Assembly: GCA_020435705.1 (NCBI GenBank)
Contig: JAGQZG010000002.1
Span: 1 to 39,933, forward strand
Direction: 5' to 3'
DNA: 39,933 nucleotides
Source of the DNA: Mangrovimonas sp.
GTDB lineage: Bacteria > Bacteroidota > Bacteroidia > Flavobacteriales > Flavobacteriaceae
The position numbers were made by a program, and so were the translations under genes. The notes below the pieces were generated by a model, which worked only from the letters and a program-made list of their open reading frames with translations, searched no databases and had not been told where the DNA came from. Positions 14,550 to 37,576 of this stretch are shown here, piece after piece. Numbering within the stretch: position 1 is the stretch's first letter; the number at the start of each line of letters is the position of its first letter.

Positions 14550-15389
14550 ATGAAAGGAATTTTTGACCTCGTATCCAATAGAACAAGTGAGATGGTAACT
14601 AAAGAATATAGCACATCATTTTCTTTGGCCACTAAATTATTGGGTCAAACTATTAGGCAGGATATTTACAATATCTATGGCTTTGTGAGGCTGGCCGATG
14701 AAATTGTGGATTCTTTTTCAGGTTATGAGCAGGAAAGATTGTTCAATGATTTTGAAAAACAAATGTATTGTGCCTTAGAAGATGGTATTAGTTTAAATCC
14801 AGTTTTAAACGCTTTTCAACATACCTATCATAAATATGATATGTCATTAGAATATGTTGAAGCCTTTATGAAGAGTATGAGAGCTGATTTGAACAAGCGA
14901 ACCTATAATACGAAAGCCGAGTATGAAGAGTACATTTATGGTTCTGCAGATGTTGTAGGCTTAATGTGTCTTCAGGTTTTTGTGAAAGGCGATAAAGAGA
15001 AATTTAGTAAGCTCAAAGATTCAGCAGAAAAATTGGGTTCTGCTTTCCAGAAAGTAAATTTTCTAAGGGATCTAAAGCAGGATTTTGAAGATTTGGGAAG
15101 AACCTATTTCCCCAATACCAATCTTATGGATTTGGACGAGTGCTCGAAATTAATGCTTATTAAGGAAATAGAAATGGATTTTGAACAAGCTTATAATGGA
15201 ATACTGCAGTTGCCAATGGATGCTCGTTTTGGTGTTTTTGTAGCTTACAGGTATTACAAACAACTGTTGAAGAAAATAGCCAATACCCCAGCCATTGAAA
15301 TTAAGAACAAGAGAATTAGAGTCAATAATTACAAAAAAATGGAGTTGCTCACTCGGAGTTTTGTAAAATATCAATTAAATTTATTGTGA
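14550..15389 (+). CDS. crtB: Phytoene synthase
   Basis: This 279-residue enzyme is a squalene/phytoene synthase. The first aspartate-rich motif is DEIVD (in VRLADEIVDSF, about residues 50-54) and the second is in FLRDLKQDFEDLGRTYFP (DLKQD, about residues 173-177). It joins two geranylgeranyl diphosphates to make phytoene. It lies 93 bases after crtI. The stop codon overlaps the crtZ ATG by one base (TGATG), which suggests translational coupling. The length is typical of flavobacterial CrtB. Confidence 0.95.
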   Translation: MKGIFDLVSNRTSEMVTKEYSTSFSLATKLLGQTIRQDIYNIYGFVRLADEIVDSFSGYEQERLFNDFEKQMYCALEDGISLNPVLNAFQHTYHKYDMSLEYVEAFMKSMRADLNKRTYNTKAEYEEYIYGSADVVGLMCLQVFVKGDKEKFSKLKDSAEKLGSAFQKVNFLRDLKQDFEDLGRTYFPNTNLMDLDECSKLMLIKEIEMDFEQAYNGILQLPMDARFGVFVAYRYYKQLLKKIANTPAIEIKNKRIRVNNYKKMELLTRSFVKYQLNLL

Positions 15390-17861: not shown

Positions 17862-20666
17862 ATGCTAAGACTAAAAGATATATTTATAATTCTCATTATT
17901 GCTTCAATTTCTAGTTTTGGCTTGGCTCAAAACACCCCTTTTTTCAAGAACTTCAATCTCTCCAAGTACAACGCCACGAATCAAAACTGGGACGTGTCTG
18001 TAGCTGATAACGGTAAAGTTTACGTGGCCAACGGCAAAGGACTAATGGAATATGATGGACTTAACTGGAAATTTCATGAGTTGCCCAATAAAACAACCAT
18101 GCGGTCTGTTTTGGCCTATAATGATAGGATATATACGGGCTCTTTTGAAGAGATTGGTTACTGGCAAAAAGATGCTAAAGGACAATTGTATTACACGTCT
18201 TTAAACGGGTTGATAAACGAAGGTATTTCTACCGATGAGGAGTTTTGGCAAATTGTACCCTATAAAACAGGAATTGCTTTCAGGTCGTTTTCAACACTCT
18301 ATGTTTATGAAAACGATAAAATTGTAAAGATAAAACCAGAGTCTACCATCATATCCATAAGTATTGTACGTGATGAGCTTTTGGTGTCAACTTTAAAAAA
18401 TGGGGTGTTTCATTATGAGCATGCCGAATTGCAACCGTTTATTACTGCTGAAGGGATTAAGAACAAGAAAATTGTTGATATCATTGAAAAACCCCAAGGT
18501 TATCTTATTGCAACGGCATTAAATGGGCTCTATAATTATGTCAATGGCGAATTGCTTCCTATTGATTCGGAAATTTCAGTATTGATAAAACAGCACCAGC
18601 TCAATGTATTTACTCAATTGGACAATGGGAATATGGCTTTTGGAACCATTAAAAACGGTATTTACTATACAAATAGTAGAGGAGATGTCTTGTTTCATTT
18701 GAGCAAAGAGGAAGGACTATTCAATAATACTGTTTTGAACCAATTCGTGTTTAAGGAAAATTTGTGGCTAAGCCTTGATAATGGTGTTGCATTGATAGAT
18801 TTGAATGGAGATTATACCTTTTTCAATGATGTTTCCGGAAAGCTGGGTGCCGTGTATGATGTCATATACTTTGATGGAACGTATTTCATTGGCAGTAATA
18901 CAGGATTATTTTATTTAGATTCCAAAGGGCAACTCCAATTTGTTGAAAACAGCCAAGGGCAAGTTTGGGATCTAAGAGAAATAAATGGACAGCTCATTTG
19001 TGGGCATAATGATGGAACGTATCTGGTAGAGAACAAAACCATTAAGAAAATTTCACCTTATACTGGTGGTTGGACCTTAAAAAGAGTGCCAGAAACCAGT
19101 GATGTTTATGTACAGGGCACCTATGCGGGATTGGTGAAATTTGAGAATCCCAAGCAGGATGAATGGAAAATAAAACATTTGGGCAAGACAACCATGCCGT
19201 TACGATATTTGGTTTTTGAAGATGCTTATACTGCCTGGGCGGCCCATGCCTACAAAGGGCTTTACAAGATAAAGTTTGATCACAACTATGATACCATAAA
19301 AACGGTTTCCAGCTATGAAAAGAAAGGTTTATGGTCCAGTTACAATGTGAGGGTTTACAAGCTCAAAAACGATATTTGCTTTAAAACTAATAACGGTTGG
19401 CAAAAATATGAACCACTTTTGGATAGTATAGTCCCTTTTGATTTATTGAACAAGAATTTAGGTGCCGATTCCTATATTATTTCCGACTTTAATTCAGATG
19501 TTTTGGTTACGAAAAGCAAAAATGAGGCAGTCAATTTCATCTCTTTTGATAGCAATACCAATAACCTATCACTAACAAACAAATATTTTGAAAACAGGTT
19601 GGTAGTAGGATCAGAGAAAGTGTCTCAAATAAACGATTCTATTTATGCCTTAAACCTAAATGATGGCTTTATGCTCATCAATACCCAAAATTATCATACG
19701 CAGCATAGATTATATCCGCCAGAAATTGAGTTTGTTAGTATAAATAATGAACTAATGGATTTATCAGAATTTGATAAGGATCAAAAGTTTGATGTTAAGT
19801 ATGGTAAAACAATTTCCTTGGGTCTGTCTTCTTCTCAATCTGATAACTATTATCTAGAATATGCTTTCATCAACAGTGATTCACTAAAATGGAATACGTT
19901 ATTAAATGATAAACTAGAATTGAATAATCTTAATGATGGATTAAACACCATTTTTCTTAGAACCCGTAATGATTACGGGGACGCCTCAAAAAATATAGAG
20001 TTCAATATAAATGTTTTGCCTCCATGGTACAGAGACACCTTAGGATATGTTATATATTTTTTGATAGTAGCACTCGTCCTTATTATTATGTATATTCTTC
20101 ATACTAGGAAGATTAACAAAGAACAGAAGCTCCTTCAAGATAAGTTTGAAAATGAGCAACGCGAATTATTAAAGGAGAAAACACTTGAGAACGAAAAGAA
20201 AATTGTTCAATTACGTAATGAATCCTTGAGAAATGAGATTAAGCTCAAGAGTAAGCAATTAGCCAATTCGGCTATGGCATTAGTTAAAAAGAATGAAACT
20301 CTACAGGATCTTAAGCAAGAGCTACTTCAACATAAGGGAGAGTTCAACAATTATTATTCTTATAAAAAGCTCATTAAGAAAATAGATACCTCTATTGAAC
20401 ATGAAGATGAATGGGAAGTTTTTGAACATAATTTCAATCAGGTTCATGAAGAATTCTTCAATAAATTAAAAACTGAGCACCCAGCTTTAACACACAAAGA
20501 TTTGAAGATTTGTGCTTACATCAAAATGAATTTATCTACTAAGGAAATTGCGCCATTGATGAATATTTCCATAAGAGGCGTAGAAACACATCGTTATAGG
20601 CTCAAACGTAAATTAAATTTGGATAATGACAATTCTTTAAGTGATTATTTGCTAAATTTTAATTAA
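17862..20666 (+). CDS. SusR-like membrane-spanning sensor regulator
   Basis: This 934-residue protein has a signal peptide (residues 1-22, cleaving near GLAQ), a periplasmic two-component-regulator-type beta-propeller (about 30-620), a Y_Y_Y domain (about 650-720), one transmembrane helix (about 731-750), a long coiled coil (about 752-850) and a C-terminal LuxR-type helix-turn-helix (870-930, with LSTKEIAPLMNIS and VETHRYRLKRKL). There is no histidine kinase or receiver domain, so it is a one-component sensor like SusR rather than a hybrid two-component system. It sits directly upstream of susC, so it most likely senses an oligosaccharide from the PUL substrate and activates the locus. Confidence 0.9.
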   Translation: MLRLKDIFIILIIASISSFGLAQNTPFFKNFNLSKYNATNQNWDVSVADNGKVYVANGKGLMEYDGLNWKFHELPNKTTMRSVLAYNDRIYTGSFEEIGYWQKDAKGQLYYTSLNGLINEGISTDEEFWQIVPYKTGIAFRSFSTLYVYENDKIVKIKPESTIISISIVRDELLVSTLKNGVFHYEHAELQPFITAEGIKNKKIVDIIEKPQGYLIATALNGLYNYVNGELLPIDSEISVLIKQHQLNVFTQLDNGNMAFGTIKNGIYYTNSRGDVLFHLSKEEGLFNNTVLNQFVFKENLWLSLDNGVALIDLNGDYTFFNDVSGKLGAVYDVIYFDGTYFIGSNTGLFYLDSKGQLQFVENSQGQVWDLREINGQLICGHNDGTYLVENKTIKKISPYTGGWTLKRVPETSDVYVQGTYAGLVKFENPKQDEWKIKHLGKTTMPLRYLVFEDAYTAWAAHAYKGLYKIKFDHNYDTIKTVSSYEKKGLWSSYNVRVYKLKNDICFKTNNGWQKYEPLLDSIVPFDLLNKNLGADSYIISDFNSDVLVTKSKNEAVNFISFDSNTNNLSLTNKYFENRLVVGSEKVSQINDSIYALNLNDGFMLINTQNYHTQHRLYPPEIEFVSINNELMDLSEFDKDQKFDVKYGKTISLGLSSSQSDNYYLEYAFINSDSLKWNTLLNDKLELNNLNDGLNTIFLRTRNDYGDASKNIEFNINVLPPWYRDTLGYVIYFLIVALVLIIMYILHTRKINKEQKLLQDKFENEQRELLKEKTLENEKKIVQLRNESLRNEIKLKSKQLANSAMALVKKNETLQDLKQELLQHKGEFNNYYSYKKLIKKIDTSIEHEDEWEVFEHNFNQVHEEFFNKLKTEHPALTHKDLKICAYIKMNLSTKEIAPLMNISIRGVETHRYRLKRKLNLDNDNSLSDYLLNFN

Positions 20667-20700: not shown

Positions 20701-20812
20701 CTACGTCATTTCTACGTCAAAAAACCTTTTCGTGTCATTTTTTTTGTTGTTTTAAGTAAATTTATAGTACGTCAATAACACGATTTTAACATATTTTTTA
20801 GAATGACGTACT
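20701..20812 (+). promoter_or_regulatory. TACGTCA repeat cluster, putative PUL operator
   Basis: The 226-base gap before susC holds TACGTCA at 20702-20708, 20713-20719 and 20768-20774, and its inverse TGACGTA at 20804-20810. The last two extend to AGTACGTCA in inverted orientation. The starts of copies one to three are 11 and 55 bases apart, close to whole helical turns. These are candidate binding sites for the upstream LuxR-type regulator. A TAATTTAG at 20854-20861 may be the -7 element of the susC promoter. Confidence 0.6.
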
Positions 20813-20892
20813 CAAAATGTAAGTTGATTTTTAAGAAACTCTTAAAGACATCTTAATTTAGTTACCGAAAACAATTCTAACAATCAAATAAT

Positions 20893-23800
20893 ATGAAAAC
20901 AAGATTTAGGCTATTATTATTTTTTCTTATGGTTTTCTCTATCTCATCGGCGCAAGAAATTGTGGTTCGAGGTACAGTGACCAGTTCTGAAGACAATATG
21001 CCCATACCTGGTGCAAATGTTGTTGTTAAAGGAACTACTAGAGGAACGAGCACGGATTTTGACGGTAATTACGAAATCCATGTCAATTCAGGAGAAACAC
21101 TAGAGTTCAGTTCAATCGGTTTTAAAACGATTGAAATTGCTGTTTCTGGACAAAATCAAATTAATGTTAAATTAGATACAGATGTTTCCCAGCTTGATGA
21201 AGTTGTGTTGATTGGTTATGGGACACAAAAGAAAGCTGATTTGACAGGGTCAATTACTGCAGTGGATGCAGAAGAAATCCAAAAAACACCTACCAGTAAC
21301 GTAAACCAAGCTCTACAAGGAAAAGTAGCTGGTGTTCAAGTGACAAGTTCTGGTGCTCCAGGTGTATCTGCTAATATCAAATTAAGAGGTGTTGGTACTT
21401 ATACAGCCAATGCTAGTCCACTATACATTGTGGATGGAATGTATTACACAGATATCGATTTCCTTAACACATCGGACATTAAATCATTGAATGTATTAAA
21501 AGATGCATCCTCAACCGCCATTTTTGGGGTTAAAGCTTCAGGTGGTGTAATTATAATTGAGACTAAATCTGGCGGTTACGACAAAAAACCAATGGTTACT
21601 TATGAAGGTTATTCAGGATTGCAAGTAGCTCAAAATGTATTAAAAATGGCCAATGCCGAGCAGTTTGTAACTATGGCCTACGAATCAGGATCTCAACCAG
21701 ATATAGACCACGTGCTAGCAGCCATGCAACGTTATGGACGTAGCCGTGTGAACCCTAACGTACCCAACGTAAATACCGATTGGTACGATGAGATTCTCAC
21801 GGAAGCTTTTATGCAAAGCCATAGCGTCAACTTCTCAGGAGGCTCAAATAATGTGTCTTATGCCATTGGGATGAACTATTTCTCACAAGATGGTATTTTA
21901 GATCATACTAAGAATGAATACGAACGTATTAACTTACGTTCAAAAATTGATGCAAAATTGTCCGATCGCTTTATCGTAGGAACAAATTTTGTAGTGAGTG
22001 ATGCTACACAGTATACTGCCGAAGGCGGTGTTTGGAACCAAGCTTATTTCGCAGTGCCTATCATGCCAGTCTATGATCCACAAAATGTGGATGCATCGCC
22101 TATTCCATATGCTAATGCTATGGATTTAGGATATAGAGGTACACAAAACCCTTTCCCAACGCTTTCATACAACAATAATAGAATGAAACACAGAAACATA
22201 TTGGCAAATATTTATGCCGAATATGATGTTTTGCCTAGCAAACTTAAGTTTAAAACAGCTTACAATTTATCCTACAGGCCTACTGAAGAGCGCTTGGTCA
22301 ACTTACCCTATACCTTAGGGCCAACAGTAGATGTTCCTTCTTCAATTACTATTGTAAATAGAGTTGGAAAAAGCCGTACTGAACCAGGTTTTAATCAAAT
22401 TTGGGATAACACGTTAACTTACACTAACAGTTTTGGTAAACATAATATTACTGCTTTGGCTGGGACATCATTTAGATCTGAAGTCTATAATATAGCTACA
22501 GCCTCTGGTAGTAATATTACGGGTGTAAACAATCAAGATAACTGGAATATTAACAATACTGATGAGTCCACTCGAAATGCCACTTCTTACAGCAGTAAAG
22601 TTAATGCGGTATCCTACTTCGGAAGATTGCAGTACAATTTCGCCGACAAATACCTTATTAATGCTACGATGAGAGCAGAAGGCACCTCTAAATATACCAA
22701 AAATCGTTGGGGATATTTCCCATCAGTAGGTGCTGGTTGGGTAGTTTCTGAAGAAAGTTTCATGAAAGATAATGGCGTCTTCGACTTTTTGAAACTAAGA
22801 GCTAGCTGGGGTAAAAATGGTAATGATAAGGTAGCCCCAAGTTCAGGGTCAAACACCGTCTCAGAAATATCTACAGCTATTGGTGGTGTACAATATAGTG
22901 GAACAACCGTATCCAGTACTTACTCAGATTTGGAGTGGGAATATGTGGAAGAATCAAACTTTGGTATTAGTGCAAGATTGCTGGATAGCCGATTGACCCT
23001 AGAAGCCGATTACTATATTAGAGATACCAAGAATGCCGTAATTCCTGTATATCAACCAATAATCAGTTTGTTTGTCAATCAAAATGCAGGTGTAATTAGA
23101 AATCAAGGATTTGAATTGGCCTTAGGCTGGAATAACAGGATTTCTGAAAAACTAAGCTACAATGTTAGCGCAAATTTCACGACACTTAAAAATGAAGTGA
23201 CCGATATCTATGTGCAGGATTATATTGATGGAGGCTCTGCCGAGTTCCGTCAAAGAACCATGGTAGGAGAGCCTATCAGAGCATTTTTTGGTTATGAAGT
23301 AGCCGGGGTTTACCAAAATCAATCTGATATTGATAATGATCCTGCAGCAGTTGCTGAAGGAAATTTAGTTCCTGGAGATTTCAGATATGTTGACCAAAAT
23401 GGTGATGGTGTGATAAATGATGACGATAGGGTTGTTCTTGGGTCCTATTTACCAAAATTTACCTATGGAGGTAACATAGGTATTAACTATGGCGATTTTG
23501 AATTCTCTTTGAGCATTTACGGCCAAACTGGAAACAAAATATTGAATAGAAAACGTGGTGAAGTCATTTGGACACCAGACCAAAATATGGATGCCGATTT
23601 GGCTATCAATCGTTGGCATGGTGAGGGAACTACCAATTCTTACCCTTCATCAGCAGGTTTAAGAAAAGGATGGAACCAAAAAATGAGTGATTTTTATGTT
23701 GAAGATGGAGACTTTTTCAGAATCCAAAACATTCAGCTGGCCTATAATTTAAGAGGGAAGAAATTGGCTGGTGCCAATATGCCCGATACTAAAATTATTT

Positions 23801-23928
23801 TCACTGCTGAACGCCCATTCACTTCATTCAAGTATAACGGATTTAATCCCGAGGTAAATGATGGTATTGATACACAAACGTATCCCGTACCCGCAATTTA
23901 TACTCTTGGTTTAAATATTAAAATTTAA
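20893..23928 (+). CDS. susC: SusC/RagA family TonB-linked outer membrane transporter
   Basis: This 1011-residue outer-membrane protein has a signal peptide (about 1-20, cleaving near SSAQ), a carboxypeptidase-D-like domain (about 22-100), the SusC junction GYGTQKKADLTGSI, a plug domain (about 110-230, with YIVDGMYY and LKDASSTAIFGVKASGG) and a 22-strand barrel reaching the C-terminus at LGLNIKI. It imports oligosaccharides with TonB energy, forming a complex with SusD. The gene begins the structural part of the PUL; susD starts 11 bases after its stop. Substrate specificity cannot be read from the sequence. Confidence 0.95.
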   Translation: MKTRFRLLLFFLMVFSISSAQEIVVRGTVTSSEDNMPIPGANVVVKGTTRGTSTDFDGNYEIHVNSGETLEFSSIGFKTIEIAVSGQNQINVKLDTDVSQLDEVVLIGYGTQKKADLTGSITAVDAEEIQKTPTSNVNQALQGKVAGVQVTSSGAPGVSANIKLRGVGTYTANASPLYIVDGMYYTDIDFLNTSDIKSLNVLKDASSTAIFGVKASGGVIIIETKSGGYDKKPMVTYEGYSGLQVAQNVLKMANAEQFVTMAYESGSQPDIDHVLAAMQRYGRSRVNPNVPNVNTDWYDEILTEAFMQSHSVNFSGGSNNVSYAIGMNYFSQDGILDHTKNEYERINLRSKIDAKLSDRFIVGTNFVVSDATQYTAEGGVWNQAYFAVPIMPVYDPQNVDASPIPYANAMDLGYRGTQNPFPTLSYNNNRMKHRNILANIYAEYDVLPSKLKFKTAYNLSYRPTEERLVNLPYTLGPTVDVPSSITIVNRVGKSRTEPGFNQIWDNTLTYTNSFGKHNITALAGTSFRSEVYNIATASGSNITGVNNQDNWNINNTDESTRNATSYSSKVNAVSYFGRLQYNFADKYLINATMRAEGTSKYTKNRWGYFPSVGAGWVVSEESFMKDNGVFDFLKLRASWGKNGNDKVAPSSGSNTVSEISTAIGGVQYSGTTVSSTYSDLEWEYVEESNFGISARLLDSRLTLEADYYIRDTKNAVIPVYQPIISLFVNQNAGVIRNQGFELALGWNNRISEKLSYNVSANFTTLKNEVTDIYVQDYIDGGSAEFRQRTMVGEPIRAFFGYEVAGVYQNQSDIDNDPAAVAEGNLVPGDFRYVDQNGDGVINDDDRVVLGSYLPKFTYGGNIGINYGDFEFSLSIYGQTGNKILNRKRGEVIWTPDQNMDADLAINRWHGEGTTNSYPSSAGLRKGWNQKMSDFYVEDGDFFRIQNIQLAYNLRGKKLAGANMPDTKIIFTAERPFTSFKYNGFNPEVNDGIDTQTYPVPAIYTLGLNIKI

Positions 23929-23939
23929 AAAAAGGAACT

Positions 23940-25478
23940 ATGAAAAATTTAAAAGTTTTAATTACATGGAGCACTGTGGCAGTATTATTGCTCACAGCCT
24001 GTAGTGATCAGTTGAACGAGCAAGAAGGCTTTACTCTAGCAAGCGATATAGATTACACAGACTCCGCTGCTATGATTGATCCAATGGTAGGTTCTTATCA
24101 AACAGTTTACACTCGTGGTTGGGAAGATTTTCCATTAATTTCTGTAAGAGGAGATGATGTTAATGCTGGAGGTTTAGGAGACCAACAGGATTATATGGAA
24201 ACCGATTTTTTTAATTACAATAAAGATTATTGGATGTACAATTCTGTTTGGCAAAACTTCTCTAGAGATATGATTGATGTTAACGCCAACATTAATGAAA
24301 TACTAAAATTCAAAGAGTATGCCACAGGAAACTATCTTGATTTAGCCGATCAATACGTGGCTGAAAGCAAAGTCTTACGTGGTTGGTTGCAATTCCAGAT
24401 GACCCGCATTTGGGGAAGTGTGTTTATCATTCAAACTAATACCCCTGCAGAAGACATTGCAAGTGGAGTTAAGACTAAAGCTGAAACAATGCAATACATT
24501 TCAGATTTAATGGACGAAGCCATACCTAACCTCCCAGCCATTAGACCAAATGAAAGAACAGATATACCCGGTGGAGTTACTAAATACACAGCTTTGGCAA
24601 TTAAAGCATTGGCAAATCTAGAAATAGAAAACTATCAAGCTGTAGCTGAGGCATGTGGTGAAATAATTAACTCTAACAAGTTCACTTTAGATTCTGATTT
24701 CTATGAGTTATTTAAGATCCCAGGAAAATTAAGTAATGAGAACCTGTTTGAACTACAATATTCAGATTATGGAACTCCAGCTGGTTCTCCAGCCAATAAC
24801 TATCTTTGGGCATTCTTTGGACCTCAAGGATGGACTCCTGCTGTGAGCGGTGCCGGTGCCGGTTGGGGATTCTATGAACCAAGCCTGAAATATATTAAAT
24901 TCATGCTAGACCGTGGTGAAACAACACGTTTGCAAACAAGTGTCTTATTTACTGACAGAGGTATAGATGAAATTACAAACGATCCAAATTATTCTTCATT
25001 ACCATCTTGGATATCCAATACAACTCCTGATGGTGATGTTATTAATGATTATTCAAGAGCAATGTTTGCTAGTGGTAAACATTACCTACCTTCCAACCAA
25101 TTAACAGCAGGTAGAACAGAGTATGGATCCAATAAAAACATGATTGTTATTCGTTATGCCGAAGTACTGTTAATGTATGCTGAAGCTCTAACAAGAGGAG
25201 CAAGCAGCTCAGGCATGTCCGCCGATCAGGCTGTTAATTTGGTAAGAGCAAGAGCAAATATGCCAAATATTTCCGGAGTTACTACGGCTCAAGTTATGAA
25301 CGAAAAATTCGCAGAATTAGCAATGGAATGGGGTATTCGTTATTACGATATCATTAGAACAGGTCAGTATGGAGAATTAAGTTATGACGGTCACAATTTC
25401 AGCGAAAGCAAGACATACTTGCCATATCCACAAGCTCAAGTTGATGCAATTCCTGAATTGACAGACACTACTAATTAA
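23940..25478 (+). CDS. susD: SusD/RagB family glycan-binding lipoprotein
   Basis: This 512-residue lipoprotein has a signal peptide with the lipobox at LLTACSDQ (Cys21). The TPR-like helical core is visible: the N-terminal part with WQNFSRDMIDVNANINEIL, the middle with YTALAIKALANLEIENY, and the C-terminal SusD block MIVIRYAEVLLMYAEAL plus RARANMP. It caps the SusC barrel at the cell surface and helps capture the glycan. It lies 11 bases after susC and 13 bases before the LamG lipoprotein, so the three are one transcription unit. Confidence 0.95.
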   Translation: MKNLKVLITWSTVAVLLLTACSDQLNEQEGFTLASDIDYTDSAAMIDPMVGSYQTVYTRGWEDFPLISVRGDDVNAGGLGDQQDYMETDFFNYNKDYWMYNSVWQNFSRDMIDVNANINEILKFKEYATGNYLDLADQYVAESKVLRGWLQFQMTRIWGSVFIIQTNTPAEDIASGVKTKAETMQYISDLMDEAIPNLPAIRPNERTDIPGGVTKYTALAIKALANLEIENYQAVAEACGEIINSNKFTLDSDFYELFKIPGKLSNENLFELQYSDYGTPAGSPANNYLWAFFGPQGWTPAVSGAGAGWGFYEPSLKYIKFMLDRGETTRLQTSVLFTDRGIDEITNDPNYSSLPSWISNTTPDGDVINDYSRAMFASGKHYLPSNQLTAGRTEYGSNKNMIVIRYAEVLLMYAEALTRGASSSGMSADQAVNLVRARANMPNISGVTTAQVMNEKFAELAMEWGIRYYDIIRTGQYGELSYDGHNFSESKTYLPYPQAQVDAIPELTDTTN

Positions 25479-25491
25479 GATAACAAACAAA

Positions 25492-27246
25492 ATGAAACTA
25501 AAGATGAAAAATATCTATAAAATATTAACTGCGATACTAGTCTCGATTTTTTTGGTATCGTGTAATGATGGAATAGACCCAATCACAGCTGTGGATCCAG
25601 GACCAGATGCTGGAGCACCTACAGTCACCATAGTAAAACCAAGCAATGGGTTTGAAATTCAAGTTCCAGAAGCCGTTGCATCTGTTAATATTGAATTTGA
25701 TGCAGAAGATGATATAGAATTGGTTTCCGTTGTAGTAAATCTTGACGGTACTCCAATAGCATCTTATAATAATTTTACTGACTACAGAATTGTAAGTGAG
25801 GAGTTTACTTATGACAATGTAATGACAGGTGATCATATTTTAACCGTAGTAGCTACGGACTTGGCAGGAAATGTTACCACGTCAATGGTAAACTTTAGTA
25901 AAGAACCCCCATACACTCCTTTGTTCAATGGAGAAGTGTTCTACATGCCTTTTGAAGGAAGCTACACAGATTTAGTCTCTTTTGCCGATGCAAACGAAGT
26001 TGGTTCTCCTGGGTTTACTAATCAAGCCAAAGTTGGAACTAGTGCCTATTCAGGTGCAACAGATTCTTACTTAACTTTCCCTACAGCAGGGCTATTGGGA
26101 AGTGAATTTAGTGCTTCTTTTTGGCTGAACATTAATTCTACACCTGATAGAGCCGGAATTCTAGTTGTAGGACCAGAAGATACGGCCAATCCCACAGCTC
26201 AAAATAACCGTACCAGCGGATTCAGATTTTTCCGTGAAAATGCTGGCGGTATGCAACGTTTCAAATTGAATGTAGGAAACGGCACAGCCGACTCTTGGTT
26301 TGATGGAGGTGTTGCTGCTGATGTTGCACCTAACACTGGGGAATGGACACACTTTGCGTTTACTATTTCTGGAACTGAATGTGTGGTTTACATTAATGGA
26401 AATATTGTAAAGCAAGGCGCTTTCTCTGGAGTAGATTGGACTGGATGCGATTTCCTATCAATTATGTCTGGAGCACCTAGATTTACAGGATGGAGCCATT
26501 TCTCTGATTTAAGCTTTATGGATGAATTACGAATTTTTAATGTTGCTTTAACCCAACAAGAGGTTATCAAGCAGATGGCATTAGGAAATCAAAAATTATA
26601 CATGCCATTTAATGGTACCTTCACCGACAAAGTAACTGATACTGATGCCACAGAAGTTGGCTCTCCAGGTTTTTCAGGTGAAAATTTTGATGGAGGAAGT
26701 GGAGATTCTTATGAAGGTGCCACAGATTCCTATTTGACCTTCCCAACAGACAATCTAATGAATAGCGAATTCAGTGCTTCTTTTTGGATGAACGTAAACG
26801 GTACGCCCGATAGAGCAGGGATTTTAGTTATGGGCCCAGAAGATACAGCCAATCCTACGGCTCAAAATAACCGTACCAGCGGATTCAGGTTTTTCCGTGA
26901 AAATGCTGGCGGTATGCAACGTTTCAAATTGAATGTTGGAAACGGTACAGCCGATTCTTGGTTTGATGGTGGCACTGCTGCCGATGTAGCTCCAAATACA
27001 GGAAACTGGGATCATTTCGCCTTTACAATTTCTGCTACTGAATGTGTTGTGTATGTAAATGGTAATGTGGTTAAACAAGGTGCTTTCTCTGGCGTTGACT
27101 GGACAGGATGTGACATCCTATCTATTATGTCTGGTGCGCCAAGATTTACTGGATGGAGCCATTTTTCAGATCTAAGCTACATGGACGACTTAAGAATCTT
27201 TGACAAAGCATTAACTCAAACTGAAGTTCAGAGTTTAATGAACTAA
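25492..27246 (+). CDS. Surface lipoprotein with Ig-like domain and two LamG domains
   Basis: This 584-residue lipoprotein occupies the place of a surface glycan-binding protein (SusE/SusF position). The lipobox is IFLVSCND. Residues about 38-140 form an Ig-like domain, and residues 146-360 and 367-584 form two LamG (concanavalin A-like) domains. The two copies are spaced by 221 residues, and a 64-residue core (220-283 against 441-504) differs at only two positions. The second in-frame ATG at 25504 is an alternative start and gives a more usual signal peptide. It probably binds the PUL substrate at the cell surface; a hydrolase or lyase role is less likely since no catalytic set is recognised. 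Confidence 0.85.
   Translation: MKLKMKNIYKILTAILVSIFLVSCNDGIDPITAVDPGPDAGAPTVTIVKPSNGFEIQVPEAVASVNIEFDAEDDIELVSVVVNLDGTPIASYNNFTDYRIVSEEFTYDNVMTGDHILTVVATDLAGNVTTSMVNFSKEPPYTPLFNGEVFYMPFEGSYTDLVSFADANEVGSPGFTNQAKVGTSAYSGATDSYLTFPTAGLLGSEFSASFWLNINSTPDRAGILVVGPEDTANPTAQNNRTSGFRFFRENAGGMQRFKLNVGNGTADSWFDGGVAADVAPNTGEWTHFAFTISGTECVVYINGNIVKQGAFSGVDWTGCDFLSIMSGAPRFTGWSHFSDLSFMDELRIFNVALTQQEVIKQMALGNQKLYMPFNGTFTDKVTDTDATEVGSPGFSGENFDGGSGDSYEGATDSYLTFPTDNLMNSEFSASFWMNVNGTPDRAGILVMGPEDTANPTAQNNRTSGFRFFRENAGGMQRFKLNVGNGTADSWFDGGTAADVAPNTGNWDHFAFTISATECVVYVNGNVVKQGAFSGVDWTGCDILSIMSGAPRFTGWSHFSDLSYMDDLRIFDKALTQTEVQSLMN
26137..27100 (+). repeat. Tandem duplication inside the LamG gene
   Basis: The LamG unit is repeated in frame with a 663-base offset. 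A 47-base run is identical between 26227-26273 and 26890-26936, including all third codon positions. The ends of the units are more diverged than the core. Confidence 0.85.
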
Positions 27247-27365: not shown

Positions 27366-28724
27366 ATGAAATATTTTCACAAATACATTGTTGCACTGTC
27401 ATTAATTCCAGCGATGGTAAGTTGCAAGTTTGACAAAAAAGAAATTGCAATCTCTAATGATGTTTCAGCCAAGTCACACTGGACAGATGAACAATTATTG
27501 GACACTATTCAGTATCAAACATTTGAATATTTTTGGGAAGGCGCTGAACCAAACTCAGGAATGGCCAGAGAGCGACTTCATATGGATGATGTGTACCCAA
27601 CATCGCCTAAAAATACTGTAACCATTGGTGGAAGCGGATTTGGACTTATGGCAATTCTGGTTGGTGTTGAAAGAGGTTTCATCACCAGAAAACAGGCTCT
27701 GGATCGTTTTGTGAAAATTGTTGATTTTCTTGAAAAAGCAGATCGGTTTCATGGTGCTTGGCCGCACTGGCTTAATGGTGAAACAGGTAAAGTCCATCCA
27801 TTCAGTAAAAAAGATGATGGTGGAGATTTAGTTGAAACCGCTTTCCTAGTACAAGGTTTATTGACAGTTTCAGAATATTTTAAGGAGGGTAATGAAAAAG
27901 AAAAAGAATTAGTTTCCAAAATTGATACCCTTTGGAAAGGAGTAGAGTGGGATTGGTATACTAAAGGCGGTGAAGATGTGCTTTACTGGCATTGGTCTCC
28001 AGACTACGGCTGGGATATGAATTTCCCCGTAGGCGGTTATAATGAATGTTTGATTATGTATGTCCTGGCGGCGGCTTCGCCCACGCATTCCATTTCAAAA
28101 TCTGTTTATGATAAGGGTTGGGCTCGTAACGACTCTATTATTTCAAAGGATTCACTCTATGGTTTACCCTTGGTTTTGAATTACTATGAGCATAATGACG
28201 ATTTAGTTGGCCCCTTATTCTGGGCACATTATTCCTATTTGGGATTGAACCCCAAAGGACTTTCCGATAAGTATGCCAACTATTGGACACTAACCCAAAA
28301 CCAAGCTAAAATTCACTATAAGTATGCCCAAGAAAATCCTAAAAATTATAAGGGGTATGGCGATAGTCTTTGGGGATTAACATCTAGTTACTCAATCAAA
28401 GGATATGCAGGGCATAGACCAGATATGGACCTAGGTGTGATATCACCAACAGCTGCCTTTTCATCCTTTCCCTATACACCAAAAGAGAGCATGCAGATGC
28501 TACGGTATATGTATGAAAAACAAGATTCCCTCATCGGGAAATATGGGCCTTACGATGCGTTTAGTCTTCAAGATCATTGGTATTTGCCCAGATATTTGGC
28601 CATAGATCAAGGACCTATACCTGTAATGATTGAAAATTACAGATCTGGGTTGCTGTGGAAATTATTTATGAGGAACCAAGATGTGAAAAGAGGCTTGGAT
28701 AAACTAGGTTTTACCTATGAATAA
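27366..28724 (+). CDS. GH144-type glucan hydrolase, lipoprotein (copy 1)
   Basis: This 452-residue lipoprotein (lipobox AMVSC, Cys21) has a single PF10091 (glycoamylase-like) domain, the domain of CAZy family GH144. Conserved blocks are EYFWEGAEPNSG, GGSGFGLMAILVGVERGF, DRFHGAWPHWLNG, DDGGDLVETAFL, WHWSPDYGWDMN, PLFWAHYSYLGLNP and GVISPTAAFSSFPY. Characterised GH144 enzymes are endo-beta-1,2-glucanases with an (alpha/alpha)6 barrel; the exact activity here is inferred. The lipid anchor and preceding surface-binding genes suggest it acts at the cell surface or in the periplasm. It overlaps the next gene by eight bases. Confidence 0.88.
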   Translation: MKYFHKYIVALSLIPAMVSCKFDKKEIAISNDVSAKSHWTDEQLLDTIQYQTFEYFWEGAEPNSGMARERLHMDDVYPTSPKNTVTIGGSGFGLMAILVGVERGFITRKQALDRFVKIVDFLEKADRFHGAWPHWLNGETGKVHPFSKKDDGGDLVETAFLVQGLLTVSEYFKEGNEKEKELVSKIDTLWKGVEWDWYTKGGEDVLYWHWSPDYGWDMNFPVGGYNECLIMYVLAAASPTHSISKSVYDKGWARNDSIISKDSLYGLPLVLNYYEHNDDLVGPLFWAHYSYLGLNPKGLSDKYANYWTLTQNQAKIHYKYAQENPKNYKGYGDSLWGLTSSYSIKGYAGHRPDMDLGVISPTAAFSSFPYTPKESMQMLRYMYEKQDSLIGKYGPYDAFSLQDHWYLPRYLAIDQGPIPVMIENYRSGLLWKLFMRNQDVKRGLDKLGFTYE

Positions 28725-30891
28725 AACGGTTTTATATATAGGAGTTCTTTTGTTGTTTGCCAATTTAATTTCGGCCCAAGAGATTCCGTATATAAAAGTC
28801 CTCTTTGATAACAGTCCAATGCCTAATTCCTACTTTTATTCCAAGGTTTCCTTTGAGGGGAATAGTTGGGTTAAAAATGAAGGCAATAAGCTGCCAGTGT
28901 CAAGCAAAATATTCTTTACTCCCAAGAATGCACTCCTACTTGAGTATAACTCGGCTGAAAAAGGCAATTGGAAAGTAAGCATAGCTTATCATAACATAAG
29001 AGGATTGAACTATTTTCAGAAAGCAGAAAACCTTTCTTTTTGGATTTTTTTCCCATCTACAGTTGATGTTAAGAGTTTGCCTAATCTTCGCTTAAAGTTG
29101 AACAGAAATGATTTTTCAAATAGTGTTCAACTGCAAGAGTTTATTTCGGAAGTAAGGCAGAACAATTGGATACAGGTAAGCATTCCGTTGAGTCGATTTG
29201 GAAATAATCTTCAAACGGAAACTATATCTGGCCTTGAGCTTTCACAATCCAGTCCTAGCGAATTGAATCAAGTTTTTTATTTGGATCAAATCGAGTTTCT
29301 TCCAAATCCGTCTTCAGTATTTGGTTCTAAAACACCCAAATTGATCTCCGCTAAGGGCTATCAAAAGCATATTGATTTGCGTTGGGAAAAAGTAACGGAT
29401 TCATTAACCCATTACGTAAGGATTTTCAGAAAAGGATCACAGGATTCCGAGTTTAAATATATAGGGGTTCAAGACCCATGGATTTCTGGTTACACAGATT
29501 TTGTTGGCGACTCTAAAGATAATTTTACCTATAGAATTTCATTTTTAAGCAGAGATTATTCCACAACCTCATTTTCTAATGAACTAGAATCCAAAACAAA
29601 GGAAATGACGGATGAACAGTTGTTGGATATGGTTCAAGAATCCCATTTTAGATATTATTGGGATGGCGCCGAACCGCATTCAGGCTTAGCACTTGAAAAT
29701 ATCCCTGGTCGAACAACCATGATAGCAACGGGGGCATCAGGTTTTGGCATTATGGCCATTGTAGTGGGTGTAAAAAGAGGATTTATTACTAGAGATGAAG
29801 CTTCGCAAAGACTGTTGAAAATAGTGCGGTATCTATCAACAGCCGATCGCTTCCATGGAGCATTTCCACATTTTTTGGATGGACAAACAGGAAAAGTCGT
29901 ACCGTTTTTCGGACAAAGAGACAATGGGGCAGATTTAGTGGAGACCTCATTTCTTATGCAGGGATTATTAGTGGCAAAAGAATTTTTCGATGAGGAAAAT
30001 TCCGAAGAAATAGAAATTAGCTCAACTATAGAAAAATTGTGGCAAGAGATAGAATGGGATTGGTTCCGTCAAGAAAGCAGTCCAGGTTTTCTTACTTGGC
30101 ATTGGTCACCGGACCAATACTGGACTATTGACCATCAACTCATAGGTTGGAACGAAACCATGATTACTTATTTCTTGGCCATTGCTTCGCCAACACACAG
30201 CGTTCCTGCGTCTATGTACTATAGTGGTTGGGCAAGTCAATCGGAAAAGGCACAACAATATAGAAAAAATTGGGGCAAGACTGAAGATGGCTCCATGTAT
30301 ACCAATGGTAACACCTATTATGGCATTACATTACCCGTTGGTGTGTCTAATGGCGGCCCACTTTTTTTTATCCATTATTCCTACTTTGCACTTGATCCAC
30401 ATAAACTGACGGATGCCTATGTGAATTATTTTAACAACAATCAGCGTATTGCTCAAATTAACCAAAACTATTGTATTGACAATCCTGAAAACCACTTAGG
30501 GTATGGTGAAGATTTTTGGGGATTGACAGCCAGTGATGGCCCCTATGGATATTCGGCTGATGAGCCCAACGTTGTAAACGATAAGGGCAAAATAACCCCA
30601 ACAGGTGCCTTAGCTAGTTTTCCCTATACTCCAGAAGCTTCCATGAAAGCGTTAAAGAACTATTATCAAAACTATGGAAACTATTGGTACGGTTTTTATG
30701 GCTTTTACGATGCGATGTCATTGGAAGATAATTGGAGATCTTCGTTGTATATGGGGTTAAACCAAGCTCCTATTGTGATCATGATAGAAAATTACAGATC
30801 AGGTTTTGTTTGGGATTTGTTTATGAAAAATGAAGATGTGAAAAGAGGACTTGAACTATTGAATAAAGAAACGGAAAGAAAAAAGTTATGA
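28717..30891 (+). CDS. GH144-type hydrolase with N-terminal binding and Fn3-like domains (copy 2)
   Basis: This 724-residue protein has a signal peptide (about 1-21, cleaving near ISAQ), a beta-rich N-terminal region (about 25-195) that resembles a carbohydrate-binding domain, an Fn3-like segment (about 205-290) and a PF10091 domain (about 293-715). The catalytic domain is diverged from copies 1 and 3: WPHWLNG becomes FPHFLDG, DDGGD becomes RDNGAD, and FWAHYSYLGL becomes FFIHYSYFAL. These changes suggest a different binding cleft. The protein may be soluble in the periplasm or secreted, since no lipobox is present. It overlaps its neighbours by eight and four bases. Confidence 0.85.
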   Translation: MNKTVLYIGVLLLFANLISAQEIPYIKVLFDNSPMPNSYFYSKVSFEGNSWVKNEGNKLPVSSKIFFTPKNALLLEYNSAEKGNWKVSIAYHNIRGLNYFQKAENLSFWIFFPSTVDVKSLPNLRLKLNRNDFSNSVQLQEFISEVRQNNWIQVSIPLSRFGNNLQTETISGLELSQSSPSELNQVFYLDQIEFLPNPSSVFGSKTPKLISAKGYQKHIDLRWEKVTDSLTHYVRIFRKGSQDSEFKYIGVQDPWISGYTDFVGDSKDNFTYRISFLSRDYSTTSFSNELESKTKEMTDEQLLDMVQESHFRYYWDGAEPHSGLALENIPGRTTMIATGASGFGIMAIVVGVKRGFITRDEASQRLLKIVRYLSTADRFHGAFPHFLDGQTGKVVPFFGQRDNGADLVETSFLMQGLLVAKEFFDEENSEEIEISSTIEKLWQEIEWDWFRQESSPGFLTWHWSPDQYWTIDHQLIGWNETMITYFLAIASPTHSVPASMYYSGWASQSEKAQQYRKNWGKTEDGSMYTNGNTYYGITLPVGVSNGGPLFFIHYSYFALDPHKLTDAYVNYFNNNQRIAQINQNYCIDNPENHLGYGEDFWGLTASDGPYGYSADEPNVVNDKGKITPTGALASFPYTPEASMKALKNYYQNYGNYWYGFYGFYDAMSLEDNWRSSLYMGLNQAPIVIMIENYRSGFVWDLFMKNEDVKRGLELLNKETERKKL

Positions 30892-32249
30892 AAAAATTGA
30901 GTTATTTAATTTGTGTGTTATTATTGTTAAGCTCTTGTGGTTCAGATGATGGGCCAGGTTATCAAGAACCATATGACCCTTCGAACAACGATCCAGTGGT
31001 AGACCCATTGACAGATATTGAATTGATGGATTTAATCCAAGATAGAACATTCAATTATTTCTGGGATTATGCCGAAACCAATTCTGGTGCGGCAAGAGAG
31101 CGATACCATCCAGATGATCCAACGAACAGTCAGAATGTGGTAACTACTGGAGGAAGTGGTTTTGGCTTAATGGCTATTTTGGTTGGTATAGAGAGAGGTT
31201 TTGTAAGTCGTGCAGAAGGGGTACAACGCTTGAATCAGATTTTGACGTTTTTTGAAAATGCCGATAGATTTCATGGTGCATGGCCACATTGGTTAAACGG
31301 GGCTAATGGGAATATAATTCCTTTCAGTAGTCAGGATGATGGCGGTGATATTGTTGAAACAGCTTTTTTTGTTAAGGGCTTAATATGTGTAGTAGAATAT
31401 TTTAAAAATGGATCCACCGAGGAAATGGCTCTTTCCAATCTAGCAGATACTTTATGGAAAGGTGTAGAGTGGAATTGGTATACCAATAACCAAAATAAAT
31501 TGATTTGGCACTGGAGCCCCAATAATGGCTTCGCAATAAATCTGGAACTTAAAGGATATAATGAAACTCTGATAGCTTTTATATTGGGGGCGGCTTCACC
31601 AGATTATTCTATCCCAGTAGAAGCCTATGAACAAGGTTGGGCAAGTAATGGGGCTATAGAAACAGCAGCAACTCAGTATGGGTATCAACTAATATTGGAT
31701 CATGCAGGTACTGGAACTGGGCCTTTATTTTGGGCACATTACTCTTATTTGGGATTGAATCCAACTAATTTATCTGATCAATATGCCAACAGCTATTGGG
31801 ATGTTAATGTAAATCATACTATGATTAATTATTCCTACTGTGTAGACAATCCGCATAATTATACAGAGTATGGACCAGATTGTTGGGGGTTAACCGCTAG
31901 TTATAGTAGGGAAACAGATGGATCCGTTGGTTATTCAGCTCATGATCCTGAAAATGACAAAGGGGTTATTTCCCCAACTGCCGCCATAAGTTCAATTCCT
32001 TACACACCACAACAATCCTTGGCTGCTATGCATCATTTTTATAGTAAAGGAACCACATTGTTAGGTAATGCAGGTTTTTATGATGCTTTTAGTCCTCAAT
32101 ACAACTGGGTTACAAAAAGATATCTAGCCATTGATCAAGGTCCACAAATAGTCATGATTGAAAACTATAGAACGGGATTGCTATGGAATTTATTTATGCA
32201 AAACCAAGACGTTCAAAATGGTCTGGACGCCTTAGGGTTTAATTATTAA
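30888..32249 (+). CDS. GH144-type glucan hydrolase, lipoprotein (copy 3)
   Basis: This 453-residue lipoprotein has the lipobox LLSSCGSDD (Cys17) followed by an acidic/proline-rich linker that is typical of surface-exposed flavobacterial lipoproteins. Its PF10091 domain shares the copy 1 blocks: GGSGFGLMAILVG, DRFHGAWPHWLNG, DDGGDIVETAF, WHWSPNNGF, GPLFWAHYSYLGLNP and GVISPTAAISSIPY. The close likeness to copy 1 and the sandwiching of the diverged copy 2 suggest duplication followed by specialisation. The predicted activity is endo-beta-1,2-glucanase-type hydrolysis. It overlaps copy 2 by four bases. Confidence 0.88.
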   Translation: MKKLSYLICVLLLLSSCGSDDGPGYQEPYDPSNNDPVVDPLTDIELMDLIQDRTFNYFWDYAETNSGAARERYHPDDPTNSQNVVTTGGSGFGLMAILVGIERGFVSRAEGVQRLNQILTFFENADRFHGAWPHWLNGANGNIIPFSSQDDGGDIVETAFFVKGLICVVEYFKNGSTEEMALSNLADTLWKGVEWNWYTNNQNKLIWHWSPNNGFAINLELKGYNETLIAFILGAASPDYSIPVEAYEQGWASNGAIETAATQYGYQLILDHAGTGTGPLFWAHYSYLGLNPTNLSDQYANSYWDVNVNHTMINYSYCVDNPHNYTEYGPDCWGLTASYSRETDGSVGYSAHDPENDKGVISPTAAISSIPYTPQQSLAAMHHFYSKGTTLLGNAGFYDAFSPQYNWVTKRYLAIDQGPQIVMIENYRTGLLWNLFMQNQDVQNGLDALGFNY

Positions 32250-32265: not shown

Positions 32266-33048
32266 ATGCTGAAAAAATTTGTTTTACTATTGGTATTTGC
32301 AAGCTCTCTCAATTTTGTATCGGCACAAGAGAACCTTTACGAAAGTGCTTACTTCATAAAAGAAAATGATACTCTTGCGTATCGAATTATGTATCCTCAG
32401 GATTTTTCCGAAGAAAACCAATATCCTTTAGTGCTCTTTCTTCATGGTGCAGGAGAACGTGGAAGCGACAACCAAAAACAGCTTGTGCATGGTAGTAAAT
32501 TATTCACAAGCACAATAAACAGAGGGGCTTTCCCTGCAATAGTTGTTTTCCCTCAATGTCCGCAGAAAAGCTATTGGTCAAATGCTGATGTAGACAGAAG
32601 CAGTTATCCCATTAAATTGGTATTTCCTAAAGATAAAGAACCCACTGAACCAATGGAAATGGTTATGTCCCTTATGGATGAATTTGTGGCCAAACCATTT
32701 GTAAATAAACAAAAAGTCTATGTGGGCGGTCTTTCCATGGGTGGTATGGGAACGTATGAAATTTTATCCAGAAAGCCGGATATGTTTGCAGCAGCCTTCG
32801 CTATTTGTGGTGGTGGTAATCCAGAACTGACTGAAAACTATGCCACTAAAATACCAATGTGGATTTTCCATGGGGCAAAAGATGATGTGGTGAATCCGCA
32901 ATTGTCAATAGATATGGTGAGTGCTATTCTAAAATTCGGAGGAAAACCTAACTTTACACTTTATGCCGATGATAATCATAACAGTTGGGACTCTGCCTTT
33001 GCTGAACCTGAATTATTACTATGGCTTTTTTCTAAAACTAAACAATAA
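32266..33048 (+). CDS. Secreted alpha/beta-hydrolase, esterase-like
   Basis: This 260-residue protein has a signal peptide (about 1-20, cleaving near VSAQ) and an alpha/beta-hydrolase fold. The nucleophile motif is GLSMGG with Ser157, the oxyanion region is FLHGAGERGSDN, the acid is in GAKDDVV (Asp206 or Asp207) and the histidine is His238 in DDNHNSW. It resembles the prolyl oligopeptidase-/PHB depolymerase-type carboxylesterases that recur in Bacteroidota PULs. It probably removes ester groups from the glycan, though peptidase activity cannot be excluded. The GH3 gene follows three bases after its stop. Confidence 0.85.
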   Translation: MLKKFVLLLVFASSLNFVSAQENLYESAYFIKENDTLAYRIMYPQDFSEENQYPLVLFLHGAGERGSDNQKQLVHGSKLFTSTINRGAFPAIVVFPQCPQKSYWSNADVDRSSYPIKLVFPKDKEPTEPMEMVMSLMDEFVAKPFVNKQKVYVGGLSMGGMGTYEILSRKPDMFAAAFAICGGGNPELTENYATKIPMWIFHGAKDDVVNPQLSIDMVSAILKFGGKPNFTLYADDNHNSWDSAFAEPELLLWLFSKTKQ

Positions 33049-33051
33049 CAC

Positions 33052-35370
33052 ATGAACTCAACTAACAAACTACTACTCATTTCATCGCTATTCATCTCTG
33101 TTTTCCTCTTGGGATGCGATAGCAAAGAAAGTCTCAATGCTTCCAAAACAGAAAATCCTTATGAAAAAAAGGTAGATTCTATATTGAAACTAATGACCTT
33201 GGAAGAAAAGCTAGGACAATTGAATCTTCCTGGAGCAGGCGATATTACTACGGGCCAAGCCCAAAGTTCGGACATTGCCAAAAAAATAGAAGATGGTCTG
33301 GTTGGTGGTTTGTTCAACATAAAATCCGCTGGAAAGATTAGGGATGTTCAAACCATCGCTGTTGAAAAAAGTAGATTAAAAATTCCTTTGATTTTTGGTA
33401 TGGACGTCATCCATGGCTACGAGACAACGTTTCCTATTCCTTTAGGGCTTTCATCTTCTTGGGATATGGAAATGATTGAACACACAGCTCACATTGCTGC
33501 TAAAGAAGCCACCGCCGATGGAATTAACTGGACTTTTTCACCCATGGTAGACATTTCAAGAGATCCGCGTTGGGGAAGAGTTTCTGAAGGATCAGGTGAA
33601 GACGCCTATTTGGGAAGTGAAATAGCAAAGGCCATGGTAAAAGGTTATCAGGGCGACGATTTAACACAAGACAACACGATGATGGCTTGTGTTAAGCATT
33701 TTGCACTTTATGGGGCTCCTGAAGCTGGTCGTGACTATAACACGGTTGACATGAGTCGTATCCGCATGTACAATGAATATTTACCACCATACAAAGCGGC
33801 GGTTGATGCCGGCGTGGGGTCTGTTATGGCATCTTTTAATGAGATTGACGGGATTCCTGCCACGGGGAATCGTTGGTTGCTCACAGAGTTGCTTAGAGAC
33901 CAATGGGGATTCAATGGATTTGTTGTTACAGATTATACGGGTATCAACGAAATGATTGAGCACGGAATGGGTGACCTGCAACAAGTATCTGCCTTGGCCT
34001 TAAAAGCGGGGGTTGATATGGATATGGTAGGAGAAGGTTTGTTGACCACACTGAAAAAATCTTTGGATGAAGGAAAAGTATCTATGGCAGATATTGACAA
34101 TGCGGTTAAAAGAATCCTTACTGCCAAATATGAATTAGGCTTGTTTGAAGATCCTTATAAATATTGCGATGTCAATCGTGCCGAAACCGAAGTGTTTACT
34201 GCCGAAAATAGAGCGTTTGCTAGAAAAGTGGGTGCCGAATCCATGGTTTTAATGAAAAATGAAGGCAATTTACTTCCTCTTAAAAAAGAGGGTACTATAG
34301 CTTTAGTTGGACCTTTGGCCAATACAGCAGTAAACATGGCCGGAACATGGAGTGTAGCAACCAATCAAGAGCAATCCAATCCGCTTTTGGATGGTTTAAA
34401 AACAGTGGTGGGCGACAGTGCAAGCATTCTTTATGCTAAAGGCAGTAACCTAGACTATGATCTTGAATTTGAAAAACGTGCTACCATGTTTGGTAAAGAA
34501 ATCCCAAGGGACGGAAGAACGGATAAGCAATTACGGGATGAAGCAGTTGCTATAGCTCTCAAGTCTGATGTGGTGATTGCTGCCATTGGAGAATCGGCCG
34601 AAATGAGCGGTGAAAGCAGTAGTAGAACCAACTTGCAAATTCCTCAAGCACAAAAAGACCTGTTAAATGCGTTGTTGGAAACGGGTAAACCTGTTGTTGT
34701 TGTGCTCTTTACAGGAAGACCTTTGGTACTTACTGAAGAAAGTGACAAAGCGCCTGCTATTTTGAATGTTTGGTTTCCAGGTAGTGAAGCGGGCTTAGCC
34801 ATTTCCGATGTTCTTTTTGGTGATGTCAATCCATCAGGGAAATTAACGGCTACGTTCCCAAGAAATGTTGGTCAAGTGCCTATTTTCTATAACCATAAAA
34901 ACACGGGACGACCTTTAGGTAACACTGAAGGTAAGTTTGAAAAATTCAGAAGTAATTACTTAGATGTTCGTAATGAGCCCTTATATCCTTTTGGTTACGG
35001 GTTGAGCTATACCCAATTTGATTATAGTAATATAAAGTTAAGCACAAACTCTATAGATGTAAAAGGAACTATTGATGTTTCTGTAGATGTGACCAATTCA
35101 GGTAATTATGACGGGAAAGAAGTCGTTCAGCTTTACCTAAGGGATTTAGTAGGCTCCGTGACAAGACCTGTGAAAGAGTTGAAAGGGTTCCAAAAAGTTG
35201 AAATCAAAAAAGGAGAAACCAAAACCGTAACTTTCCATCTTACAGTGGAGGATTTGAAATTCTATAATTATGATCTTGATTTTGTGGCCGAACCTGGAAA
35301 ATTTCAAGTGTTTGTGGGCACCAATTCTGACACCCAAAATGGGGCTGAATTTGAATTAACGGAAAAATAA
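33052..35370 (+). CDS. bglX: GH3 family beta-glucosidase, lipoprotein
   Basis: This 772-residue lipoprotein (lipobox FLLGCDSK, Cys22) is a three-domain GH3 enzyme: TIM-barrel (about 40-360), alpha/beta sandwich (about 385-620) and an Fn3-like domain (about 680-755). The nucleophile is Asp294 in GFVVTDYTGINE, and the motif KHFALYGAPEAGRDYN is typical of BglX. It releases glucose from the non-reducing end of beta-glucosides. Some Bacteroidota BglX-like enzymes near GH144 genes cleave beta-1,2-glucooligosaccharides, which would fit here. The GH97 gene starts five bases after its stop. Confidence 0.93.
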   Translation: MNSTNKLLLISSLFISVFLLGCDSKESLNASKTENPYEKKVDSILKLMTLEEKLGQLNLPGAGDITTGQAQSSDIAKKIEDGLVGGLFNIKSAGKIRDVQTIAVEKSRLKIPLIFGMDVIHGYETTFPIPLGLSSSWDMEMIEHTAHIAAKEATADGINWTFSPMVDISRDPRWGRVSEGSGEDAYLGSEIAKAMVKGYQGDDLTQDNTMMACVKHFALYGAPEAGRDYNTVDMSRIRMYNEYLPPYKAAVDAGVGSVMASFNEIDGIPATGNRWLLTELLRDQWGFNGFVVTDYTGINEMIEHGMGDLQQVSALALKAGVDMDMVGEGLLTTLKKSLDEGKVSMADIDNAVKRILTAKYELGLFEDPYKYCDVNRAETEVFTAENRAFARKVGAESMVLMKNEGNLLPLKKEGTIALVGPLANTAVNMAGTWSVATNQEQSNPLLDGLKTVVGDSASILYAKGSNLDYDLEFEKRATMFGKEIPRDGRTDKQLRDEAVAIALKSDVVIAAIGESAEMSGESSSRTNLQIPQAQKDLLNALLETGKPVVVVLFTGRPLVLTEESDKAPAILNVWFPGSEAGLAISDVLFGDVNPSGKLTATFPRNVGQVPIFYNHKNTGRPLGNTEGKFEKFRSNYLDVRNEPLYPFGYGLSYTQFDYSNIKLSTNSIDVKGTIDVSVDVTNSGNYDGKEVVQLYLRDLVGSVTRPVKELKGFQKVEIKKGETKTVTFHLTVEDLKFYNYDLDFVAEPGKFQVFVGTNSDTQNGAEFELTEK

Positions 35371-35375
35371 TAACC

Positions 35376-37478: not shown

Positions 37479-37489
37479 ATTTAATTACA

Positions 37490-37576
37490 ATGAAGTATTA
37501 AACTGGTCTTCTCATTCTTGATGCTCTTTTTTGTTTTGCTCAGAAAAAAACTTACTGGTTTATTAAATGTTTAAAT
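37490..37576 (+). pseudogene. Possible remnant of a signal-peptide coding start
   Basis: The 98-base gap before the GH43-like gene contains ATG AAG TAT TAA at 37490 and then an open frame reading TGLLILDALFCFAQKKTYWF, in phase with the downstream start. The FAQ ending resembles a signal-peptidase cleavage site of the kind seen across this locus. It could be the left-over start of a deleted or frameshifted gene. The stop codon after three residues makes it non-functional. Confidence 0.35.

Follow-up and report, generated by a model that had tools for sequence, protein, structure and literature searches.

The SusR-like regulators of Bacteroides are membrane-anchored activators of PULs, and the operators predicted for them consist of direct repeats whose centers are unusually far apart, at 67 or 77 bp (Ravcheev et al., 2013, PMC3878776). 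For HTCS, direct repeats about 21 bp apart were predicted in the same study (PMC3878776). DegU of B. subtilis recognizes inverted and potentially direct repeats (PMC9263151). In the literature searched, no operator motif published for LuxR-type one-component PUL regulators was found, and the SusR-like and HTCS motifs were the nearest. This agreed with the initial annotation of the DNA analyzed here, which held the binding motif of its regulator to be undescribed; predicted motifs are available for the SusR-like and HTCS classes (PMC3878776).

The window, i.e., the whole stretch of 39,933 nucleotides that was analyzed, comes from Mangrovimonas sp. and contains the gene of a 934-aa membrane regulator (17862..20666, + strand). 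The protein belonged to the GerE/LuxR class, with a match to PF00196 at residues 875–926 of 32.6 bits (E = 6.2e-08) against a curated cut-off of 23.5. It comprises an N-terminal helix, periplasmic beta-propellers (~27–600), a YYY-like domain, a long helix/coiled coil (726–823), which would hold the membrane span, and the GerE/LuxR HTH (875–926), whose recognition helix (~904–917) includes Thr909. The AlphaFold2 model had a mean pLDDT of 67.8, and at this moderate confidence its best Foldseek matches were the HTCS sensor domains of BT4673 (E = 8.7e-28), BT4663 (E = 1.1e-24), and BT3049. Proteins matching the regulator at E ≤ 1e-50 were found in 27 of the 60 relatives searched, and LuxR-type one-component PUL regulators were common in marine Flavobacteriaceae.

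All genes of the downstream PUL lie on the + strand. The first gene of the operon, susC (20893..23928; TIGR04056, E = 1e-240), encodes a SusC/RagA TonB-dependent transporter and is followed by susD (23940..25478; PF07980), the gene of a probable laminin-G-like surface glycan-binding protein (25492..27246; PF13385), and three PF10091 “glycoamylase” genes (27366..32249). The esterase, GH3, GH97, and GH43 genes behind them (32266..39487) probably belong to the same operon or PUL as susC. Since we take PF10091 to be GH144, our guess is that the PUL substrate is of the beta-1,2-glucan type. Two carotenoid-type genes, encoding an amine oxidoreductase family protein and a squalene/phytoene synthase, were observed upstream of the PUL (12993–14456 and 14550–15389 of the window).

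The 226-bp gap between the regulator gene and susC holds four exact copies of TACGTCA, three direct and one inverted, at exactly the positions and spacings that had been annotated initially; the distances between successive starts are 11, 55, and 36 bp. The distal tandem pair is formed by box 1 (20702..20708, + strand) and box 2 (20713..20719, + strand), which starts 11 bp further on. Box 3 (20768..20774, + strand) starts 66 bp past box 1. Box 4 (20804..20810, − strand) is the inverted copy and reads TGACGTA on the + strand (consensus TGRCGTA). The initial annotation overlooked a fifth, degenerate inverted half-site, box 5 (AAATGTA, 20815..20821, − strand; consensus xxxTGTA), which starts 11 bp past box 4 and completes an inverted 11-bp pair with it. 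The overall layout is thus a tandem pair, a single box, an inverted pair, and the promoter, and the functional unit extends as far as a −7-like element at 20854–20861. Two of the copies had also been described as extending to AGTACGTCA in an inverted pair, and this 9-mer was indeed present at 20766–20774 (+) and 20804–20812 (−). As the true unit it was rejected: the flanks varied among orthologs and only the heptads were strongly conserved, so that the AG extension is considered incidental.

Elsewhere in the window, TACGTCA occurred only at 13715 (−) and 37721 (+), both within genes. The earlier claim that the motif is absent from the other intergenic gaps of the locus was borne out: no exact copy was found in any other intergenic gap of the window, and a single box with one mismatch turned up (TGAAGTA at 37491). 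The six copies in the window compare with 2.0 expected, and 2 of 100 shuffles reached six. A 7-mer is short, and this one has 105 copies across the draft genome to which the window belongs, as would suit chance clustering where the DNA is rich in A and T. However, when the gap was shuffled by dinucleotides (n = 20,000), no shuffle reached three copies and 26 reached two. If the post-hoc choice of the word is allowed for, any 7-mer with at least three G or C appeared four times in 4 of 3,000 shuffles. The number of copies in the gap thus greatly exceeds what chance would give. The conservation with fixed spacing at 32 loci, given below, already refutes such clustering, and we regard its probability as negligible.

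The orthologous clade (G clade) was defined as the regulator of the window and 31 others with at least 51% identity, giving 32 loci. In all of them the array was located between the regulator gene and susC. The distal pair was retained throughout with its spacing of 11 bp (32/32), and the distance from box 1 to box 3 was 66 bp in 29 of 31 loci. From box 3 to box 4 it was either 35–38 or 46–49 bp, with no values between, a difference of about one helical turn; the 47 bp counted for locus L038 takes its TGGCGTA as box 4. The GTA that occupies positions +15 through +17 of box 4 and is the basis of box 5 was kept in 29–30 of the 32 loci. A lack of conservation upstream of orthologous susC genes had been named at the outset as what would speak against an operator; the elements were conserved in a fixed geometry at every one of the 32 loci. 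In several genomes, susC and susD were replaced by homologs with only 35 and 26% identity to those of the window and the array was retained, which indicated that the array follows the regulator. Three loci with such distant susC/susD (L122, L123, and L124) retained the regulator, array, and enzyme genes, and their spacing from box 3 to box 4 was longer (48–49 bp).

The −7-like promoter element TAATTTAG (20854..20861, + strand) is of the type TAnnTTTG and starts 50 bp past the start of box 4. TAnnTTTG is the −7 consensus of Bacteroidota. The −33 element is poor in the window. Transcription is expected to start at ~20866, ~25 bp ahead of susC. In every measurable ortholog, the start of box 4 was 49–51 bp from the −7-like box (TAnnTT), and the distance was exactly 50 bp in 24 of them. 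The proximal pair starts at a fixed 50–51 bp upstream of the −7-like box, which places box 5 just upstream of the −33 region. This position bears on whether the adjacent regulator, if it binds these sites, acts as a repressor or mainly regulates its own gene. A repression loop would also be compatible with the remote upstream positions of box 3 and the distal pair, and in a distant lineage of regulators that likewise carry Thr at residue 909 (see below) the boxes sit upstream of the regulator gene itself. However, the proximal pair stops at a fixed distance short of the −33 region and leaves the promoter uncovered, for which reason activation is favored over repression. The G-clade boxes are downstream of the regulator gene, away from its promoter, and SusR is an activator (PMC3878776). 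Repression or autoregulation as the main function was thus considered improbable.

The regulators of the sister clade (A clade) were ~33–39% identical to that of the window. Their gaps contained pairs of TACATCA with 11-bp spacing, together with an inverted TGATGTA, mostly at +99–101, and lacked box 3, which was restricted to the G clade. The distance between the proximal box and the −7 box was 50–51 bp, with 51 bp in 18 of 24 cases. Of the 30 A-clade loci, 9 had no clean full pair at the mismatch limit applied, and G and A boxes were mixed in two loci of this clade (L060 and L084). Conserved words, GTTAAAnTT and ACTGCAAA, were observed between the distal and proximal pairs of sister-clade gaps, e.g., at L006, L007, and L073, where box 3 would fall. 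The more distant K clade (helix VEVKR) had 11-bp repeats of a different sequence, e.g., TACCTATACATTACCACAACAT, and in 13 of 14 loci the start of its inverted element preceded the −7 box by 50 bp. Another regulator family of the same class (helix VEIRR) was again associated with TACATCA and an inverted TGATGTA. At L018, the 535-bp gap contained a near-palindrome, situated between ~408 and ~370 bp ahead of the downstream gene, that is made up of two 11-bp tandem pairs (two copies of TACCACAACAT followed by the inverse).

These comparisons also bear on the idea that the repeats form an RNA structure, i.e., a hairpin or terminator, and no protein site. In its favor, boxes 3 and 4 constitute an inverted repeat of 9 bp that encloses a loop of 29 bp. 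However, the 9-bp extension was unconserved, box 3 was missing in the sister clade, and two of the boxes are direct repeats. The likely promoter is also downstream of the boxes, a search of Rfam gave no match, and the terminator scan found no terminator-like site. An RNA structure is therefore a very unlikely explanation.

The sequence of the boxes changed together with the recognition helix of the adjacent regulator. Residue 909 was Thr and base 4 of the boxes was G by majority in 32 of 32 G-clade loci; in the sister clade, the residue was Ile, Val, or Leu and the base was A by majority (30/30, including one row whose helix, VEIHR, was not parsed by the pattern). Among the last 120 residues, 909 was the sole column without overlap between the two clades, and positions 901 and 915 separated them almost as cleanly. 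On the careful tree the G and A clades each had a single origin, so that the contrast between base and residue amounts to one evolutionary event; a quick tree left L079, a long-branched sister row, unplaced. The distant Thr lineage, of which one member (G275) was 25.6% identical to the regulator of the window, fell outside the G and A clades with full support on the careful tree. It had TACGTCA-type 11-bp pairs in the upstream promoter region, and base 4 was mixed (G in nine, A in three, and T in several). The co-variation of box and recognition helix thus held across the two clades and partly in this independent lineage, which supports a code of Thr909 for G but shows it to be looser there. 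Thr909, which we take to align with the position of Val189 in NarL, is the leading candidate for the residue that reads G at base 4.

The perfect tandem pair occurred once in the draft genome of the window. When up to two mismatches were allowed in the tandem pair, to look for a further regulon site in that genome, five matches were obtained against 17 for the reversed control; only the perfect one stood out, and a further site was rejected. Among 299 genomes of the family, 21 contained the perfect pair, one each, and the reversed pattern occurred three times; 16 of the 21 pairs were at orthologous loci. Two of the other five lay within long genes, probably by chance, one was beside a distant Thr-type regulator, one was 10 kb from another Thr-type regulator, and one was in an unrelated gap. 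At L088, a perfect TACGTCA pair (5640–5657) was observed before a 429-aa gene, ~10 kb from a Thr-type regulator, where action at a distance is possible. Since the perfect pair occurs once per genome, the regulon is probably this single promoter.

The genomes of the family carry several paralogous LuxR-type PUL regulators, and the array might be the operator of some other DNA-binding protein, either a global regulator or another factor of the LuxR type, present here because PULs share it. However, a site found once per genome, in only 21 of 299 genomes and in 16 of these at orthologs of the window's regulator, is not that of a global regulator, and the boxes change in step with the recognition helix of the adjacent regulator. 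We consider this assignment quite unlikely.

The comparison of loci ties the sequence of the array to the adjacent regulator, and its position to the susC promoter. The array is thus very probably the operator of this membrane one-component regulator, which combines a periplasmic beta-propeller/YYY sensor with a LuxR/GerE domain and would activate susCD. The initial annotation had proposed that the array fits an operator for the LuxR-type domain of this protein, and the co-variation of box and helix across clades and the rarity of the motif elsewhere speak for that proposal. The two tandem heptads of boxes 1 and 2, 11 bp apart, lie on the same helical face. This distal pair and the proximal inverted pair (boxes 4 and 5, also 11 bp apart) flank ~100 bp, with box 3 at +66 bp as an addition of the G clade. 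We infer that an oligosaccharide from the PUL substrate binds the periplasmic propeller/YYY sensor and that the regulator then dimerizes or rearranges across the membrane. Its GerE domains would bind the heptads and so bridge the two pairs, distal and proximal. From its position immediately before the −33 region, the proximal pair would contact RNA polymerase, activating susCD and the enzyme genes.

It seems somewhat more probable than otherwise that one operator grammar is common to the propeller/YYY-LuxR one-component PUL regulators of Bacteroidota, in which half-sites 11 bp apart form a tandem pair on the distal side and an inverted pair on the proximal side, the proximal pair is 50–51 bp from the −7 box, and the letters of the half-sites are set by residues of the recognition helix (at base 4, Thr909 reads G and Ile, Val, or Leu reads A). 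If that is true, the targets of many uncharacterized regulators are predictable from sequence, and regulators can be assigned directly to promoters by way of a conserved grammar in which specificity is likely switched by one residue. The same grammar would allow tests of how transcription is activated by a LuxR-type protein that is tethered to the membrane, and it would be useful for building glycan-inducible promoters.

A similar protein, WP_008773160.1 (named “triple tyrosine motif-containing protein” by NCBI), was found on the Parabacteroides distasonis plasmid NZ_OY725801.1, with the same order of regulator, susC, susD, and a glucoamylase-family gene. Its helix reads RGIEAARYR. No TACnTCA boxes were present on the + strand, but AGTAGTA-type 11-bp repeats were. 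The gap of the P. distasonis plasmid locus (L136, 8794–9127), from a gut member of Bacteroidales, holds the AGTAGTA-type 11-bp repeats.

Compared with the described systems, the 66 bp from box 1 to box 3 resembles the 67 or 77 bp of the SusR-like repeats, but here it is part of a richer array and is missing in the sister clade; SusR was compared by its description only. The DNA-binding domain of SusR has no significant similarity to known families (PMC3878776), whereas the GerE/LuxR domain is clear here. The 11-bp tandem and inverted pairs present here do not appear in the text on the SusR-like motif (PMC3878776). With the HTCS (BT4663, BT4673, and BT3049), the locus shares the periplasmic propeller/YYY sensor fold, as judged from a model of moderate confidence, the probable control of susCD, and putative direct-repeat operators. 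However, Pfam found only GerE in the regulator of the window, which is not an HTCS because the histidine kinase, receiver, and AraC domains are absent. Regulators of the NarL/DegU type are alike in their GerE domain and heptad-type half-sites, and the NarL heptamer also begins with TAC. Unlike them, the regulator of the window has no receiver domain and is tethered to a membrane sensor.
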